Below, one piece after another: positions 13,761 through 41,862 of a DNA stretch of 64,000 bases. A program made the translations under genes and the position numbers. Source of the DNA: Arthrobacter sp. UNC362MFTsu5.1 (GTDB taxonomy: Bacteria > Actinomycetota > Actinomycetes > Actinomycetales > Micrococcaceae). The notes under the pieces were generated by a model that saw only the letters and a list, made by a program, of their open reading frames with translations, had not been told where the DNA came from and did not search any database. The stretch is taken from NCBI RefSeq assembly GCF_000685965.1, contig NZ_JMLE01000004.1, forward strand, positions 62,001 through 126,000. The letters are read 5' to 3'. Every line of letters begins with the position of its first letter. Positions within the stretch are counted from its first letter, which is position 1.

Positions 13761-15077
13761 ATGACGGGACCCGTTTCCGGGACCGGTGCGGGGGATCCTG
13801 GCGGGGATCCCGCGGTGGCGATAGCCCGCGTCTTCCGCCGCGAGTACGGCCGCGCCGTGGCGGTCCTGGTCCGGGTGTTCGGCAGCATTGACATCGCCGA
13901 GGACGCCGTCCAGGACGCGTTCACGGCAGCGGTGCAGCGCTGGCCGTCCGCGGGCATCCCGCCCAGTCCCGCCGGCTGGATCATCACTACTGCCCGCAAC
14001 AGAGCCATCGACCGGCTCCGGCGTGACGCCGCCCGCGACGACAAATATGCCCAGGCGGCGCTGCTCCACTCCCGGAACGGGGAAGCCCCGGGAGCGGCGC
14101 CCGAAGACCTGCTGATGGATGAGCTGGGGGAGGAGGCCGGAGTGAACGATGACACGCTGCGGCTGATCTTTACCTGCTGCCACCCCGCCCTCGGAATGCC
14201 GGCGCGCGTGGCGCTGACGCTTCGCCTCTTGGGCGGGCTGGGTACTGCGGAAATTGCGCACGCCTTCATGGTGCCGGAAAAGACCATGGCCCAGCGGCTG
14301 GTCCGGGCCAAGGCCAAAATCCGGGACGCCCGGATTCCCTACCGCGTTCCCCGCGGTGCCGAACTGCCGGAGCGGCTGACAGCCGTGCTCGCCGTCGTCT
14401 ACCTCATCTTCAACGAGGGATACAGCGCGAGCTCCGGCGAGGCAATGGTCCGGGACGAGCTTTGCACGGAGGCCGTCAGGCTGGCCCGGCTCCTGGTCGC
14501 GCTGATGCCGGACGAACCCGAAGCCCAGGGGCTGCTGGCGCTGCTGCTGCTGATTGGGTCGCGGCGCGCCGCCAGAACGGCGCCCGACGGCGGCACGGTG
14601 CTGTTGGCGGACCAGGACCGGGCGCTGTGGGACCAGGACCTGATCCTCGAAGGCCAGGCGATTGTGCGCCGCTGCCTCCGCCTGAACCGGCCGGGACCGT
14701 ACCAGCTTCAGGCTGCCATCAACGCCGTCCACAGCGACTCCCCGTCGGCCGGTGCGACGGACTGGAACCAGATCCTGCGGCTGTACGACCAGCTCCTGCA
14801 GGTGTCGCCCGGCCCGGTGGTGGCCCTCAACCGGGCGGTGGCTGTTGCCGAAGTGCAGGGCCCCGCCGCGGCCCTCGGGCTGGTTGATGCCCTGGACCTT
14901 GGGGGCTACGGCGTATTCCACTCGGTGCGAGCGGACCTCCTCCGGCGCCTGGGCCGGTACTCCGAAGCCAGGAAGGAGTACCGGAAGGCGCTGGCGCTGG
15001 CAGGAAATGCGGCTGAGCGGCGGTTCCTTGACGGCCGGCTGCTGGAACTGCCCCCGGCTGGCGAGCCGTCGTCGTGA
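13761..15077 (+). CDS. ECF42-group RNA polymerase sigma factor
   Basis: 438 aa. Sigma-2 domain at ~20-90 ([52 protein letters not shown]) and sigma-4 domain at ~140-195 ([27 protein letters not shown]). Then comes a long C-terminal extension with the ECF42 signatures [19 protein letters not shown] and [13 protein letters not shown], and TPR-like helices to the end. In this group the extension is needed for activity and there is no anti-sigma factor, consistent with none being encoded here. Its partner DGPF gene precedes it. ATG 13761 lacks a strong Shine-Dalgarno. Confidence 0.9.
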
Positions 15078-15100
15078 ATGCTTCCGTTCGAGGCGCAAGG

Positions 15101-15165
15101 CCCCGGTGAGCGAGCAAAGCCCCGGTGAACGAGAAAAGCGCCGGAGAACCTGCCAAACCCCGGAG
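15101..15165. repeat. Degenerate 19-bp tandem repeat
   Basis: Units begin at 15101, 15120, 15139 and 15158, exactly 19 nt apart, on the pattern CCCCGGTGAACGAGAAAAG; the fourth is partial. It lies between the sigma gene and the first structured RNA. Part of it (15132-15156, read on the minus strand) resembles the terminator end of those RNAs, so it may be a decayed further copy. Confidence 0.65.
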
Positions 15166-15170
15166 ACCTT

Positions 15171-15283
15171 AAAAGAGAAAGCGCCGGACGGTCCTGCCGA
15201 AGGAATTGGGGGAACCCTTCCGCAGCCGCCCGGCGCCGCGCCGGTCCCGAAGAACCGGCTGTCATCACTCGCACCTGTGAGGC
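15171..15283 (-). ncRNA. Structured small RNA, copy A of a tandem pair
   Basis: Read on the minus strand. A -10 TAGCTT (15290-15295) precedes a transcript of about 113 nt that starts near GGTGCGAGTGATG. It contains hairpin 1 (GCCGGT / ACCGGC with a GGG-containing loop) and a long outer stem GGCGCCGG / CCGGCGC enclosing a second hairpin (GAAGG / CCTTC) with loop GTTCCCCCAATT. It ends in TTTCTCTTTT, a rho-independent terminator. The G-rich and C-rich loops could pair. The 15078-15610 gap holds no protein gene. Copy B at 15390-15498 has the same plan with different stem sequences. End coordinates are estimates. It could belong to the C-loop '6C RNA' group, but only one loop is C-rich, so I leave it unassigned. 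Confidence 0.55.
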
Positions 15284-15389
15284 ACTTCCAAGCTAGCGAC
15301 CCAGTTTGGGTGTTTCAGGAATTTTCCCTGTGCGTTGGCTGGCAATGTGCACTGGCCGGGGCTGAGGACGGGGCCGGGAGCCCGGACTT

Positions 15390-15498
15390 AAAAAGAGAAG
15401 CACCGGCGGCCCTGGCAGGAAAATGGGGGAAACCTGCTGCAGACCACCGGTGCCGGGCAAACATCCCCATGCTTGCCGCATCACTCGCACCCTCAATG
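15390..15498 (-). ncRNA. Structured small RNA, copy B of a tandem pair
   Basis: Read on the minus strand. A -10 TAGTTA (15505-15510) precedes GGTGCGAGTGATG. Hairpin 1 is GCAAGCAT / ATGTTTGC with a GGGG tetraloop. An outer stem GCACCGG / CCGGTGC encloses GCAGG / CCTGC with loop TTTCCCCCATTTT, and the element ends TTCTCTTTTT. Stems differ from copy A but pair equally well, while the 5' GGTGCGAGTGATG and the CCCCC loop are kept. Compensatory change plus a terminator argues for a real small RNA. It lies about 110 nt from proC on the opposite strand. Confidence 0.6.
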
Positions 15499-15610
15499 AG
15501 GTAATAACTACGTTAGGCGTCCACTTTGTGAAGAAGCTGCGGCCATCATGTGAGCCAGCTGTGAATGGGGCCGGATGCGACAATGCTCGGCGAACTGCCA
15601 TGATGGACCA

Positions 15611-16444
15611 ATGAGCAACCGAATCGCATTCCTTGGCTGTGGATCCATGAACGAGGCCGTCATGAGCGGCATGCTGGAGGCCGGAACGGACCCCGCGGAT
15701 GTCGTGGCCACCGTCCGGCGCGCTGAACGTGCCGCCGAACTTGCCCAGCGGCACCCCGGCATAACGGCCATAGCCGGCGAAGAGGAGCCGGAAAACAACA
15801 TGCAGGCGGCCACCGGCTCCGACATCGTGATCCTTGGCGTCAAGCCTGTGGGAATTGCCGATCTCGCGAGGGAAATCAGCGGTGCGTTGTCCCCGAAGAC
15901 CATCGTCATCAGCGTGGCCGCCGCGGTGTCCATCGCGCAGCTCGAAGCTGCACTGCCGGCCGGACAGCCCGTGATCCGCACCATGCCGAACACGCCTGCA
16001 AAACTCGGGCGCGGCGTCGTGTCCGTCTCGCCCGGAACCCACTGCTCTGCCGAACAGCTGCAGCTGGCCAAGGACGTCCTCAAAGGTACCGGGACCGTCG
16101 TGGAGGTGCCCGAAGAACAGGTGGATGCGCTGTCCGCCATCAGCGGTTCGGGTCCCGCCTACGTGTTCTACCTGGCCGAAGCGATGGCGGCCGCCGGCGT
16201 CGAACTGGGGCTGGATCCCGAGCTGTCACTCCTGCTGGCGCGGGAAACGGTTGCGGGCGGCGGCCTGATGCTGGCTGAGCCCGGCGCGGATCCCACCACA
16301 ATGCGGAAGGCGGTGACCAGCCCGAACGGCACCACCGAGCGGGCCATCGCCACATTCGACGAGCGCGGCCTGCCGGCGATCATCGCCGACGGCGCCCGCG
16401 CCGCAGCCGCCCGCGCCGCCGAAATCACCCGGCAGCTCGGCTAG
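15611..16444 (+). CDS. proC: Pyrroline-5-carboxylate reductase
   Basis: 277 aa. Catalyses NAD(P)H-dependent reduction of 1-pyrroline-5-carboxylate to L-proline, the last step of proline synthesis. The Rossmann domain opens IAFLGCGSMNEAVMSGML and includes VILGVKPVG and VIRTMPNTPAKLGRGV. The C-terminal helical dimer domain has ALSAISGSGPAYVFYLAEAM and the proline-reductase signature around LLARETVAGGGLML and VTSPNGTT. ATG 15611 is preceded by CATGAT and 6 nt, a possible leaderless start. Confidence 0.95.
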   Translation: MSNRIAFLGCGSMNEAVMSGMLEAGTDPADVVATVRRAERAAELAQRHPGITAIAGEEEPENNMQAATGSDIVILGVKPVGIADLAREISGALSPKTIVISVAAAVSIAQLEAALPAGQPVIRTMPNTPAKLGRGVVSVSPGTHCSAEQLQLAKDVLKGTGTVVEVPEEQVDALSAISGSGPAYVFYLAEAMAAAGVELGLDPELSLLLARETVAGGGLMLAEPGADPTTMRKAVTSPNGTTERAIATFDERGLPAIIADGARAAAARAAEITRQLG

Positions 16445-38638: not shown

Positions 38639-39775
38639 TCACAGCTCCAGTGTGAGCGGCCGCCGGATCCCGTTCACGACGGCGGCGGGCCAGCGCGGAT
38701 CCACGCTGAGGACTGCGATCCCGGCCCCGGTGAGCTGCACCGTGTCCTCGATCTTCACTTCCGGACCGGACGGGTTCCAGGTGAAGGTCTGGTTGGGAAC
38801 CACCAGGTCCTCGGTTGCGGGAGTCGCCCGGGGATCGCGGCCTGCATATCCGGCCGGACCGCCCTGGTGGTGGAGGGTCCACTGGTCGGGGCCGAAGCCG
38901 TGCCGGACGTAGGCCTCCCGGATTTCCGCGAAGATGCCGTCAAGGCGTGCCCCGGGAACGGTGGCGTCAAAGATGTCCGCCTCCACCGCGGCAATCCGGG
39001 CTTCGGCATCGAGTTCGGCCGGGGTGCCGGCGTCGAACCGGACCCAGCGCGTTACGTTGGCCACCAGCCCGTTGCGCCGCGCGCACACCACCGCCATAGC
39101 CCGCCGGCCGATCGGTGCGGGGGTGGGCAGCGGATGCCGGAACCCGCTGCGTTCCGCACCGTTGCACAGGAGCACCAGCGGCTCGGCCCCCATCGCCACG
39201 ATCCGGGCGGCCAGGGCGGAAGCCACGGCGAACTCCGTGGTTTCCGGAGTGGCTTCGGCGAGGACGTCGGTCATGGCGGCCGCTGCGCCGGCGCACAGCC
39301 GGGCGTACCGGCTGCTTTCCCCGGGCAGGAACTGCTGGCGGGCCGTCCTCAGCTCGTCCGCAACATCGGCTTCCGAGAGCGGCTTCCCTCCCGGAGCGAG
39401 CATGGATGCGGCGGCATGCAGCTGCCCGTGCCACGGCACCGCGTGGAGGGCGACGCCGTCGGGCAGTTCCTCCGCCGCGATCCGGGCGGCCTCGTTGTTG
39501 AAGGTGACCAGATGGTCGCCGTCACGGTCAACCAGCATTGCTGCGACGGGGTCACCGGCCAGGCTGATGTGGACCCGGCTCCCGTCCAGGTACCACGTCA
39601 GCGCCGTGTTGGTGGTGAGCAGGAGGGACTCCCGGCCCGCGGCGTCCAGGATGTCCAGGACGCGCCGCCGTTTGACTGCCCGGTCGGCCGGGTTCCCCGG
39701 GGCCTCGGCGTCGCTCAGATTCGACACCTGATGTGTCTCCTGTGCCTGTTGCGTTTGCTGTGTGACGGTGTTCAT
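38639..39775 (-). CDS. M24-family (creatinase/prolidase fold) protein lacking most metal ligands
   Basis: 378 aa. N-terminal creatinase-N domain (~40-170) and C-terminal pita-bread domain. In active M24 peptidases the metal sites read D...D...H...E...E. Here the Asp-Asp region is RRNGLVANVTRWVRF, without the aspartates; the His region is HHQGGPAGYAGRD; the first Glu site is TFTWNPSG without Glu; and only IEDTV keeps its Glu. It may therefore be metal-independent like creatinase, or a binding protein. It overlaps the upstream DUF6807 fusion by 4 nt (ATGA) and is third in the esterase operon, so a role in the same catabolic pathway is likely. Confidence 0.75.
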   Translation of the reverse strand: MNTVTQQTQQAQETHQVSNLSDAEAPGNPADRAVKRRRVLDILDAAGRESLLLTTNTALTWYLDGSRVHISLAGDPVAAMLVDRDGDHLVTFNNEAARIAAEELPDGVALHAVPWHGQLHAAASMLAPGGKPLSEADVADELRTARQQFLPGESSRYARLCAGAAAAMTDVLAEATPETTEFAVASALAARIVAMGAEPLVLLCNGAERSGFRHPLPTPAPIGRRAMAVVCARRNGLVANVTRWVRFDAGTPAELDAEARIAAVEADIFDATVPGARLDGIFAEIREAYVRHGFGPDQWTLHHQGGPAGYAGRDPRATPATEDLVVPNQTFTWNPSGPEVKIEDTVQLTGAGIAVLSVDPRWPAAVVNGIRRPLTLEL

Positions 39776-41862
39776 GCGGTTTCCCCCAAAGTGGTGATGA
39801 GCTGTTCGATATCGCTAGAGGACAGGAGCCCGTCGGCCACCAGGACGGTGACGGTCCGGTGCAACGGGTTGGCGTGGCTGGCCACTGCCGGCTGCTCCCA
39901 GGCTAGGGAGAGGCCGACGCCGGGATACCCCGCCACGCGGACAAACCAGGGGTCGCCGGGCTGCTCGGGCCCCGGCCGGGGCAGGAAGACCAGGGTGGCG
40001 CGACCGCCGTCGGGCTCTCCCTGCCGGAAGATGCCCGACCACGCCAGCCACGGCGCCGCAGCGGACGGGACGGCCCCGTGCAGGGATTCTTCCCCCTCCG
40101 CGGACGCCGTCCACACCCTTGGCCCGTCGACGGCGGGAAGCCGCCAGAAGAAGCCCCCGTAGCCGCCCTGCGGCCGGCCGTTCGAGCCCGGACTGCCGAG
40201 CGTGACCGGGTCCGGTCCGTTCGGCGTCAGGGTGAAGTCCAGCGTGAGCCGCCACACGGAAGAGCCGACGGCGGCCCAGCTCCACGCCCGCTGTTCGTTC
40301 AGGAGCGGTGTGCCGTCCGGCCGGAGCCATTGCAGTGTTTCGGTCCGCACGTTCCCGTCACGGTCAGCCGCGACCGTGACAATGCGGCCGTGGTCGTTCC
40401 GCCAGACGTAGGCGCCGGCGTCGCGGGTATAGGTGCGGCCGCCCCAGAAGTTCACGCCGTCCACGTCCTGGACGGCAACCCCCGCGCCGAGGTGCCACAC
40501 ATGGTCCTCGGGCAAATGGTCCGTCACCACGGTCCCGGCCAGGGTTCTGACCGGGTGGAGGTACGGGCGGGACGAGGACGTGGGTGCAATCCGGCGGCCG
40601 TCGTTTCCGCGGGCCACTTCGCGGCCGTCCACCGTGAAGCCGTCCACCATGAACTCGGGATGTTCGGTATCCAGCTCCCGGGCCCACGGCACACCAAGTT
40701 CAGCGAAAGTTGCCTGCGCCGCGGCGGCCCGGCGCAGCAGCTGGCCGATTCCGCGGACCACCGGATGGGCGTCGTCGTCCCCGCCCTTCCACGTGACGTG
40801 CCCAGCGCCGATCGCACGCGGAGGTTCCGCGGTCCGGATGGCCTCCAGCACCGTCATAAAGGCGCCGTTGCCGGCCAGCGGGCTCAGCAGCCCGTGCGCA
40901 CCGGCAGGGGAGCGGCGGGCAGCCAGGAGGTTCTCCAGCAGATCGGTGCGGCCGAAAGTTTCCGTGCGCTCGCGGTCGGGCGTTGTCACGGTCAGCCGGT
41001 CCTCGGTGTAGAAGAAGTCAGCCCTGCCCAGGGTGCCGTGGACGGTGACAGCCGGCGCGGTCTGTTCCTCGGCGCAGAGTGTCAGCGCGCAGAGGAGGAC
41101 GCCGCCGCGGGACGTGCGGACCCGGATCACCGAGGTGTCGTCGCTTTCGGTGGCGTGGGCGCGGTAGAGGTCCGTTTCCACGGACAGGACGTCGTCAGCC
41201 TTTTCCGCACCGGCGATCTTCAGTCCGGTGGCCACGGCGTGCGCCAGGGCATTGGTGGCTACGCCGTCCACCACGTCCGTGCCGTCCAGGCTGCGTTTGC
41301 CGGCCCAGCGTGAGCGTTTGAAATAGCCCCTGGTGCGCACCCACGTGCCGACCGCGCTCACTCCGCGGACCTCGCCGATTTCACCGGACGCCACAATCCG
41401 GTCCAGGGCCGGCAGGGCGTGGGAGCCGAGGCTTTGGAAGCCCACCTGGACCAGTCGGCCGGCCCGCCGCGCTGCGGCGAGCACTTCGTCGTACTGGGCC
41501 AGGGACGCCATCGGCGGCTTTTCCACGTACACATCGGCCCCCGCAGCGATCGCCGCCAGGGCAAGCGGCGCGTGGGTCTGGATGGGGGTGGCCAGAATGA
41601 CGACGTCGGGCGCCGGCCCGGCGGCCAGCAGTTCCTCCAGCGACGCGAACGTGGCCACGCCCTCGGGAAGCGTGCCCTCGGCCGGCGGGCGGGGGTCCGC
41701 CACCGCCGCGAGCTGCACGAGGTTGAGCTCGCCCAGGCGGGCCAGGTTGTCCAGGTGGCGGGTCCCGTAGCCTTGCGCGCCCACGAGGGCGATGCGCGGC
41801 ACCGGGGAAGTGGCCGGCCGGCGTCGTTCGTCGGTGGCGGAAGTAAAAGTATCGGCTGTCAT
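39772..41862 (-). CDS. Gfo/Idh/MocA oxidoreductase fused to DUF6807
   Basis: 696 aa. Residues ~20-395 are a Gfo/Idh dehydrogenase: RIALVGAQGYGTRHLDNLARL, VVILATPIQTHAPLALAAI, VYVEKPPMAS, then the second domain with KRSRWAGKRSLDGTDVVDG and TNALAHAVATGLK. Residues ~430-695 match DUF6807 (formerly PmoA-like): RPYLHPVRTLAGTVVTDH, DHVWHLGAGVAVQDV, NFWGG, GYGGFFWRLP, DPWFVRVAGYPGVG. The two halves are usually separate genes, so the fusion suggests they act on one substrate. ATG 41862 overlaps the esterase stop by 4 nt. A paralogue lies at 59170-61275. Confidence 0.85.
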   Translation of the reverse strand: MTADTFTSATDERRRPATSPVPRIALVGAQGYGTRHLDNLARLGELNLVQLAAVADPRPPAEGTLPEGVATFASLEELLAAGPAPDVVILATPIQTHAPLALAAIAAGADVYVEKPPMASLAQYDEVLAAARRAGRLVQVGFQSLGSHALPALDRIVASGEIGEVRGVSAVGTWVRTRGYFKRSRWAGKRSLDGTDVVDGVATNALAHAVATGLKIAGAEKADDVLSVETDLYRAHATESDDTSVIRVRTSRGGVLLCALTLCAEEQTAPAVTVHGTLGRADFFYTEDRLTVTTPDRERTETFGRTDLLENLLAARRSPAGAHGLLSPLAGNGAFMTVLEAIRTAEPPRAIGAGHVTWKGGDDDAHPVVRGIGQLLRRAAAAQATFAELGVPWARELDTEHPEFMVDGFTVDGREVARGNDGRRIAPTSSSRPYLHPVRTLAGTVVTDHLPEDHVWHLGAGVAVQDVDGVNFWGGRTYTRDAGAYVWRNDHGRIVTVAADRDGNVRTETLQWLRPDGTPLLNEQRAWSWAAVGSSVWRLTLDFTLTPNGPDPVTLGSPGSNGRPQGGYGGFFWRLPAVDGPRVWTASAEGEESLHGAVPSAAAPWLAWSGIFRQGEPDGGRATLVFLPRPGPEQPGDPWFVRVAGYPGVGLSLAWEQPAVASHANPLHRTVTVLVADGLLSSSDIEQLITTLGETA

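Follow-up and report, generated by a model that had tools for sequence, protein, structure and literature searches.

A covarying small-RNA family encoded divergently from proC in Arthrobacter and its relatives

The window analysed here, a 64,000-nucleotide stretch of the genome of Arthrobacter sp. UNC362MFTsu5.1, contains a gap between a sigma-70-family gene and proC, in which one structured element is present twice, both times on the minus strand. The genes and the parts of the two copies are as follows, with the evidence for each in brackets.

13761-15077, plus strand: sigma-70-family gene (Pfam)
15611-16444, plus strand: proC, the conserved divergent neighbour (Pfam P5CR_dimer; synteny by tblastn in 66/67 genus members)
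15388-15502, minus strand: sRNA copy A (type A), predicted transcript beginning with ACCUC and ending in a UUUUUAA tail (about 115 nt), its start set from the position of the -10 element (covariance model R1, 132 bits, E 3e-34)
15479-15491, minus strand: leader GGTGCGAGTGATG of copy A, invariant (60/60 sampled same-genus genomes)
15510-15515, minus strand: -10 element TAACGT of copy A (TANNNT 8 nt before CCTC in 142/165 thinned members)
15522-15554, minus strand: putative OmpR/PhoB-type response-regulator box of copy A, three 11-bp units CTCACATGATG GCCGCAGCTTC TTCACAAAGTG (family-wide CNCA units in 11-bp phase)
15456-15477, minus strand: hairpin 1 of copy A, loop GGGG (folding; helix 1 covaries)
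15400-15453, minus strand: hairpin 2 of copy A, terminator-like, with the C-loop TTTCCCCCA at 15432-15424 (folding, covariation)
15169-15283, minus strand: sRNA copy B (type B), predicted transcript of about 115 nt with a predicted start (R1, 94 bits, E 2e-23)
15263-15275, minus strand: leader GGTGCGAGTGATG of copy B, invariant (exact 13-mer genome search)
15290-15295, minus strand: -10 element TAGCTT of copy B (position of the -10 in the family, and sequence)
15302-15334, minus strand: region of copy B that corresponds to the copy A box, in 11-bp phase, CGCACAGGGAA AATTCCTGAAA CACCCAAACTG, with a degenerate middle unit (family phasing and sequence)
15240-15259, minus strand: hairpin 1 of copy B, loop TTCG (folding; helix 1 covaries)
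15181-15236, minus strand: hairpin 2 of copy B, terminator-like, with the C-loop TTCCCCCAA at 15214-15206 (folding, covariation)

Two tandem copies of an unassigned structured small RNA had been postulated for this gap from the sequence alone, and this original prediction is borne out: the copies are real, and the Rfam check that it suggested gave 0 matches of Rfam 15 models at gathering score in the 64-kb window, while a search of 15080-15620 at E up to 10 returned only low-scoring microRNA models and one Xanthomonas sRNA model. The conserved 5' stretch said to be common to both copies is the exact 13-mer GGTGCGAGTGATG in each of them, and these are its only two sites in the whole 5.1-Mb genome. 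Equally present in both copies is the announced second hairpin, which is long, has a CCCCC loop and is followed by a short T-rich tail. Other details held for one copy but not for the other. A -10 of the form TAGYTW is found in copy B, but in copy A TAACGT is likelier than the TAGTTA originally proposed, as judged by the TANNNT spacing that is seen in 142/165 family members; likewise, the G-rich loop of hairpin 1 is a feature of copy A, whereas copy B has TTCG in this place. The proposed T-run terminator survives in the form of the terminator-like hairpin 2, but the tails are only moderately U-rich, and a simple scan of 15000-15700 found neither a terminator nor a sigma-70 promoter. The label 'antisense' turned out to be misleading, since both copies are oriented away from proC and lie wholly outside its coding sequence, which starts at 15611.

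Compared with shuffled sequences, copy A folds with a z-score of -2.6 (4 of 200 shuffles are equally good) and copy B with -3.1 and -3.3 (0 of 200). In a model-fitted alignment of 100 sequences, all 28 base pairs show changes on both sides, and 93.6% of the cells are paired versus 31-44% when the partners are slid against each other; for the 67 distinct rows from outside the genus this value is 93.7%. Because a model-fitted alignment leans towards its own structure, the count was redone on a sequence-only MAFFT alignment, in which both-sided changes are found in 17 of the 28 pairs, with 91.9% of the cells paired versus 37-57% with slid partners. That the stems differ between the two copies yet stay paired, as had been stated for this one genome, is also correct: in the model-fitted alignment, 9 of the 28 pairs are changed on both sides between A and B, 2 on one side only, 13 are identical and 4 lack pairing in at least one copy. 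Shorter members of the family, i.e. those of about 75-100 nt, have no hairpin 1, and their leader is followed by a single hairpin. At the very 5' end, a 4-bp stem ACCU/RGGU with a loop of variable length can be drawn in almost every one of 288 members; of the full set of 292, there were four in which the leader could not be parsed, and another four have no TANNNT in range. Among the 288, an A-U closes the stem on the outside in 249 cases and a G-U in 35, and U4 stands opposite G in 144 and opposite A in 142; as these changes are one-sided only, they amount to no proof, and the stem may be called plausible. The kissing of the G-rich with the C-rich loop that had been suggested is unsupported, since the 72 distinct loop pairs have a mean complementarity of 1.667, which is also the mean of the shuffled pairs (555 of 1000 shuffles are as high as the observed value). 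Moreover, several species have GCGG in place of GGGG, and their C-loop has not changed to match.

The leader 13-mer is present in the own genome and in all 60 sampled genomes of the same genus, as well as in 2 of 38 genomes from elsewhere in the order, in which the remainder of the RNA is absent. By exact 13-mer, the genus members comprise 56 of type A and 11 of type B, with four loci that have the 13-mer without the RNA (L009, L010, L063 and L069) left out of the genus counts. The covariance model R1, built from 65 genus sequences, carries the distribution much further: the search of family genomes recommended by the original prediction gave hits in 218 of 245 genomes from the taxonomic family, with 1-8 matches per genome and often just one, and the homologous loci covary. 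Thus, a structured RNA family, often multicopy and without an Rfam 15 match in the window, extends over 31 of the 32 sampled genera of one bacterial family; for genus g35 there was no R1 match among the matches listed. In the own genome, R1 matches copies A and B only, even at E up to 1. A second model, R2, built from 100 sequences, matched 19 of 248 genomes in an order-wide sample, 17 of them within the family and two in other families of the order, where the matches score 22-23 bits and do not have the exact leader; in a phylum sample it matched 2 of 246 genomes, both of the same genus. The RNA is almost confined to one taxonomic family, therefore, with outside matches being nearly nil. When 80 of 118 stretches were scored with R2, leader and model match coincided at least in records named Arthrobacter, Pseudarthrobacter, Paenarthrobacter, Glutamicibacter and Paeniglutamicibacter, and further in Micrococcus, Kocuria, Zhihengliuella, Auritidibacter and Citricoccus, from which we infer that the family in question is the Micrococcaceae. 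Plasmids gave no match to 15080-15620. Among viral contigs there were 15 pattern matches, 4 of them with a model score and the best at 20.6 bits, and pattern matches also came from Rhizobium (19.9 bits) and Oceanobacillus (21.5 bits); all of these are read as chance. A search of the literature on the family or its hosts found no description of it; four sRNAs are reported from the transcriptome of Arthrobacter oxidans KQ11 (PMC6696678), and these may overlap with it.

Two individual loci stand out. In one genome (L289, G120:C5:178000-180800), four short members follow one another in tandem on the same strand, and each has both the leader and its own hairpin. A record titled Sporosarcina beigongshangi (L159, contig NZ_JADHDY010000003.1) contains an 8-kb stretch of 66.9% GC with an sRNA copy of 89.9 bits; this stretch also matches the ppx, TIM-barrel, proC and trkA genes of the window and is up to 91% identical at the DNA level to another locus of the set (L117). 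Most likely, the contig is a contamination in the Sporosarcina beigongshangi assembly.

The position of the RNA relative to proC is highly conserved in the genus, where the single member without divergently upstream proC (L011) has no proC match in its stretch. Of the 70 matches from other genera (two of them counted twice, as L106 repeats L100), 51 have a divergent proC, one lies just downstream of proC on the proC strand (in L129, which has a second copy in the usual place) and 18 are without a proC match. Two of these 18 stretches (L113) keep the usual ppx and TIM-barrel neighbours; several others, by our reading, appear to lie near histidine ammonia-lyase-like (hutH-like), mmsA-like, inositol-monophosphatase/manganese-transport or MFS genes. 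Because the RNA is encoded on the opposite strand, runs away from proC and in some copies has no proC match in the stretch, it is a separate divergent gene; it is not a proC leader, and it is not antisense to the proC coding sequence. The own genome has a second proC-like gene (L310, G000:C53:2850-5850), about 55% identical to the ProC of the window, with a leader-like 13-mer (1 mismatch) about 130 nt past its end and no model match.

Promoters were compared in a set that had been thinned for near-identical sequences from 284 to 165 members. In 142 of these, TANNNT, mostly in the form TANNGT, precedes CCTC at a distance of exactly 8 nt. Upstream of it, the members with C-N-C-A at -37, -26 and -15 relative to the -10 number 91, 41 and 111 of the 165, respectively, whereas other offsets are occupied in 0-9 members, except for -39 (29 members) and -17 (25 members). 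At least two such units are present in 87 of the 165 versus a mean of 0.3 in shuffled sequences; 21 have none. What characterizes these promoters is thus TCMCAG units at 11-bp spacing and no recognisable -35. Units with an 11-bp period that adjoin the -10, with no -35 region, are the layout of promoters controlled by OmpR/PhoB-family regulators. Because the 11-bp-spaced TCMCAG units stand in place of the -35, the activator of the sRNA is most likely a response regulator of this family (MtrA-, PhoP- or RegX3-like). In M. tuberculosis, PhoP is reported to bind TCACAGC-N4-TCACAGC, with three- and four-unit arrays being bound more tightly (PMC4832192), and for mycobacterial MtrA binding to direct repeats of GTCACAgcg is described (PMC13189361). 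MtrA of Corynebacterium glutamicum, which controls osmolyte uptake and cell-wall genes, has a reported site of 8-bp repeats with a 3-bp linker, i.e. the same 11-bp period with a different sequence (PMC3353115). Occurrences of the box outside the two copies did not reveal the regulator. The genome contains a single further exact triple box (L302, G000:C28:1887-1913), located about 35 nt upstream of a Ferric_reduct gene, and this site points to no regulator; the Ferric_reduct gene may be under the control of the same regulator as the sRNA copies. A stricter search with a double box gave a match in 1 of 61 genomes.

The second conserved part of the RNA is the loop of the terminator hairpin, which exposes UUUCCCCCA and comes as UUUCCCCCAUU in type A and as UUCCCCCAAUU in type B. 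When members were folded singly (L298 and L299 were left out of this, the two-loop and the ORF counts), CCC or more was unpaired in the last loop of 97 of 101 long members and CCCC in 87. Of the short members, 8 of 19 expose CCC and 11 do not, i.e. the C-loop is not universal, whereas the leader is. The complement of the type A loop close to a gene start, AATGGGGGAAA-N0-14-RTG, gave 48 rows in 37 of 61 genus genomes versus 5 for the reversed pattern; these rows represent 44 sites, of which 6 are the sRNA gene's own complement (5 by locus and one by its sequence). Thirty AATGGGGGAAA loci were read, 25 of which are not the sRNA gene, and 25 background loci with other bases before GGGGGAAAATG served for comparison. 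Counting ORFs of 80 or more codons (present at 17 of the 25 test and 12 of the 25 background loci), a hydrophobic N-terminus is encoded by 11/17 genes behind AATGGGGGAAA versus 1/12 behind other bases plus GGGGGAAAATG (Fisher p 0.003), in tests that are small, partly orthologous, unequal in spacing between test and background and designed after the first hits; with orthologues merged by hand, the figures are 8/14 versus 1/9 (p 0.04). AAT precedes GGGGGAAAATG in 7 of 38 sites, some of the 7 being orthologous, versus 0.6 expected from the other sites' marginals. Overall, the enrichment of loop complements at gene starts, many of them for secreted or membrane proteins, is suggestive.

Compared with Pfam, six candidate targets turned out to be an acyltransferase, a GmrSD_C/Excalibur protein, an L,D-transpeptidase and an FG-GAP protein, with two remaining unmatched. 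In the own genome, the single AATGGGGGAAA start site overlaps the start of an ECF sigma-factor gene (Sigma70_r2, Sigma70_r4_2), and the loop-complement site has the same ECF sigma-factor context in a second genome (L344); a AATGGGGGAAAATG gene is a candidate target alongside the ECF sigma-factor gene. The predicted targets vary between species, the largest orthologous group being found in 3 genomes, with a fourth (L348) added by reading. Within the window itself, there is one candidate target:

39773-39790, minus strand: TTTGGGGGAAACCGCATG at the start of a Peptidase_M24 gene (39775-38639), with 11 nt exactly complementary to loop A

The predicted duplex of this gene start with loop A has -22.6 kcal/mol, a value reached by 1 of 500 shuffles in what is a single case, and among 45 crude gene starts it ranks first for loop A and second for loop B. 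In three genomes (L350, L368 and L371), a gene that by our reading resembles tadA/cpaF starts behind ATTGGGGGAAAATG or TTGGGGGGAAAATG; ATTGGGGGAAAATG partly matches the type B loop.

On these observations, i.e. a family with a covarying fold, with loop, box and synteny conserved and with complementary sites at gene starts, we base the following reading. Each copy would be a gene in its own right, encoding a small RNA of about 115 nt in which a tiny ACCU/AGGU hairpin is followed by the invariant stretch GCGAGUGAU(G), a variable hairpin and a terminator hairpin. A two-component regulator of the OmpR/PhoB family would switch on both copies, which would act as sibling sRNAs, with their C-loops pairing with G-rich ribosome-binding sites, often of mRNAs for envelope or secreted proteins, and this pairing would probably block translation. 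The copies would thus be two-component-controlled antisense sRNAs that resemble LhrC and 6C RNA in their action but do not belong to 6C, a reading to which we give a probability of roughly 0.55. The family also supplies a covariance model, a promoter box and candidate targets in soil and skin bacteria, in which riboregulation is little known.

Several known sRNAs share elements of this design, all of them compared here by description. Mcr7 of M. tuberculosis, a PhoP-regulated sRNA present in a single copy, is likewise actinobacterial and has an OmpR-family regulator and TCACAGC-like boxes. LisR, the regulator in the case of LhrC, is of the OmpR type. LhrC of Listeria monocytogenes is described as having five copies, all of which need the two-component system LisRK for expression, and as using UCCC motifs in loops and a single-stranded stretch to bind mRNA, with the cell-wall adhesin mRNA lapB as a target (PMC4132741). 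The likeness lies in multicopy sibling sRNAs (2 in the own genome, 1-8 across the 218 genomes) and would extend to two-component control and a C-rich mRNA-binding motif if the phased promoter repeats and the loop complements at gene starts have the proposed roles; the difference is that LhrC belongs to another phylum and that the present RNA has an invariant 5' leader. Also RNAIII, RsaE, SprD and FsrA, listed as UCCC-motif sRNAs of low-GC bacteria (PMC4132741), are similar in using an unpaired C-rich motif for mRNA binding but come from another phylum.

The invariant leader, being the part that long and short members alike have kept, allows a different reading, in which it is itself the working part that sequesters a protein or the ribosome (AAGGUG-N6-AUG looks like a translation start), with the hairpins providing mere structure and termination. 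The short members from Glutamicibacter, Micrococcus and Kocuria, which keep the leader often without a C-loop, would fit this, as would the tandem array of four members in one genome and the ATG that directly follows GAGTG in 250 of 292 members. However, the remaining 42 have another triplet in this position, the C-loop is retained in 97 of 101 long members, and an ORF is not conserved. As 126 of the 250 ATG frames had met no stop codon within the stretch read, the ORF test was redone on 120 distinct delimited members: 33 have no ATG, 40 have a frame that ends after 2 to 33 codons, and in 47 the frame continues as far as the RNA does, with leader-to-end distances spreading over all three frames, and a small protein gene is unsupported for want of a conserved ORF. 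Taken together, we regard a leader-only function as unlikely, though worth keeping in view. With much less probability, the region from +1 to +24 could be a DNA operator or promoter-proximal element, i.e. a protein-binding DNA site that is transcribed incidentally. In favour of this, the leader is conserved as DNA, and partial palindromes are formed by CCTC/GAGG and, in a few copies, by CACTC/GAGTG; against it, the CCT-GGT spacing varies from 4 to 9 bases, which does not fit a dimer operator, and strong covariation is seen in the hairpins downstream. CACTC-N9-GAGTG, as found in these few copies, resembles the HrcA/CIRCE operator motif; an HrcA operator was nevertheless rejected, since most members do not have the left arm and the spacing varies. 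Pairing of the leader with mRNA was also considered: the 13-mer has 11 genome matches with up to 1 mismatch, two of which are copies A and B, and among the other nine, all of which were read, no evident antisense partner near a gene start on the pairing strand turned up. Our guess is that the leader is a stability element or a protein-binding handle. A more specific and rather doubtful version of this would have the invariant 5' module (the 4-bp hairpin followed by GCGAGUGAUG) as a tag for an RNA-binding protein, i.e. an sRNA chaperone, with the C-loops being delivered to mRNA starts as an envelope-stress regulon. If so, the leader would be a handle for an RNA chaperone in a phylum that is still seeking its equivalent of Hfq, and for mycobacteria such an Hfq-like chaperone is described as still being sought (PMC8628891).

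Returning to the reading as two-component-controlled antisense sRNAs, this has also to be weighed against membership in a known family and against a function in cis. 6C RNA, which is RF01066 and the same as B11 of M. tuberculosis, is likewise an actinobacterial sRNA with C-rich hairpin loops, and the present family could be a divergent branch of it, with a C-rich loop in the terminator hairpin and with CCC or more in both loops of 19 of 101 two-hairpin members. Yet the window copies have one C-rich loop each, versus the two C-loops that serve as a criterion for 6C, and their hairpin 1 loops are GGGG and TTCG. Furthermore, neither the window nor any of 14 member loci was matched by the 6C model, 15080-15620 gave nothing even at E up to 10, and the own genome gave no match in a search that is insensitive, as it matched 1 of 14 control genomes (Corynebacterium glutamicum, below cut-off) and none above cut-off. 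In a sample of 100 genomes of the family, 4 have an RF01066 score above cut-off and 29 a match at E up to 1; the eight best of these 6C loci are without a leader-like stretch or a proC match and reach R2 scores of 10.6 bits or less, and no sequence was found that scores well with both models. The original prediction had been reminded of 6C by the C-rich loop next to a terminator, and of this the similarity in design stands, whereas membership does not: the two families appear to be convergent in design rather than members of one family, and we consider common membership improbable. Less probable again is a cis-acting element of proC, i.e. an attenuator, an antisense RNA or a structure in its 5' untranslated region, even though the place upstream of proC is conserved. 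Such an element is hard to reconcile with an RNA that is encoded on the other strand and runs away from proC, and with the 18 of 70 non-genus matches that have no proC match, several of which lie near hutH-like, mmsA-like or Mn-transport-like genes.

For 6C RNA itself, interactions with the panD and dnaB mRNAs are reported (PMC8628891). Several loci encountered in the course of this comparison contain 6C-like RNAs. In genus g35 (L311, L314, L315 and L317), these appear by eye as chains of several hairpins, i.e. more than two, with C-rich loops, whereas those of genus g39 (L312, L313 and L316) have three C-rich hairpins by eye, with L312 and L316 lying near genes that resemble ribosomal protein genes. 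Genus g39 thus holds 6C-like RNAs together with up to 7 matches of the present family.
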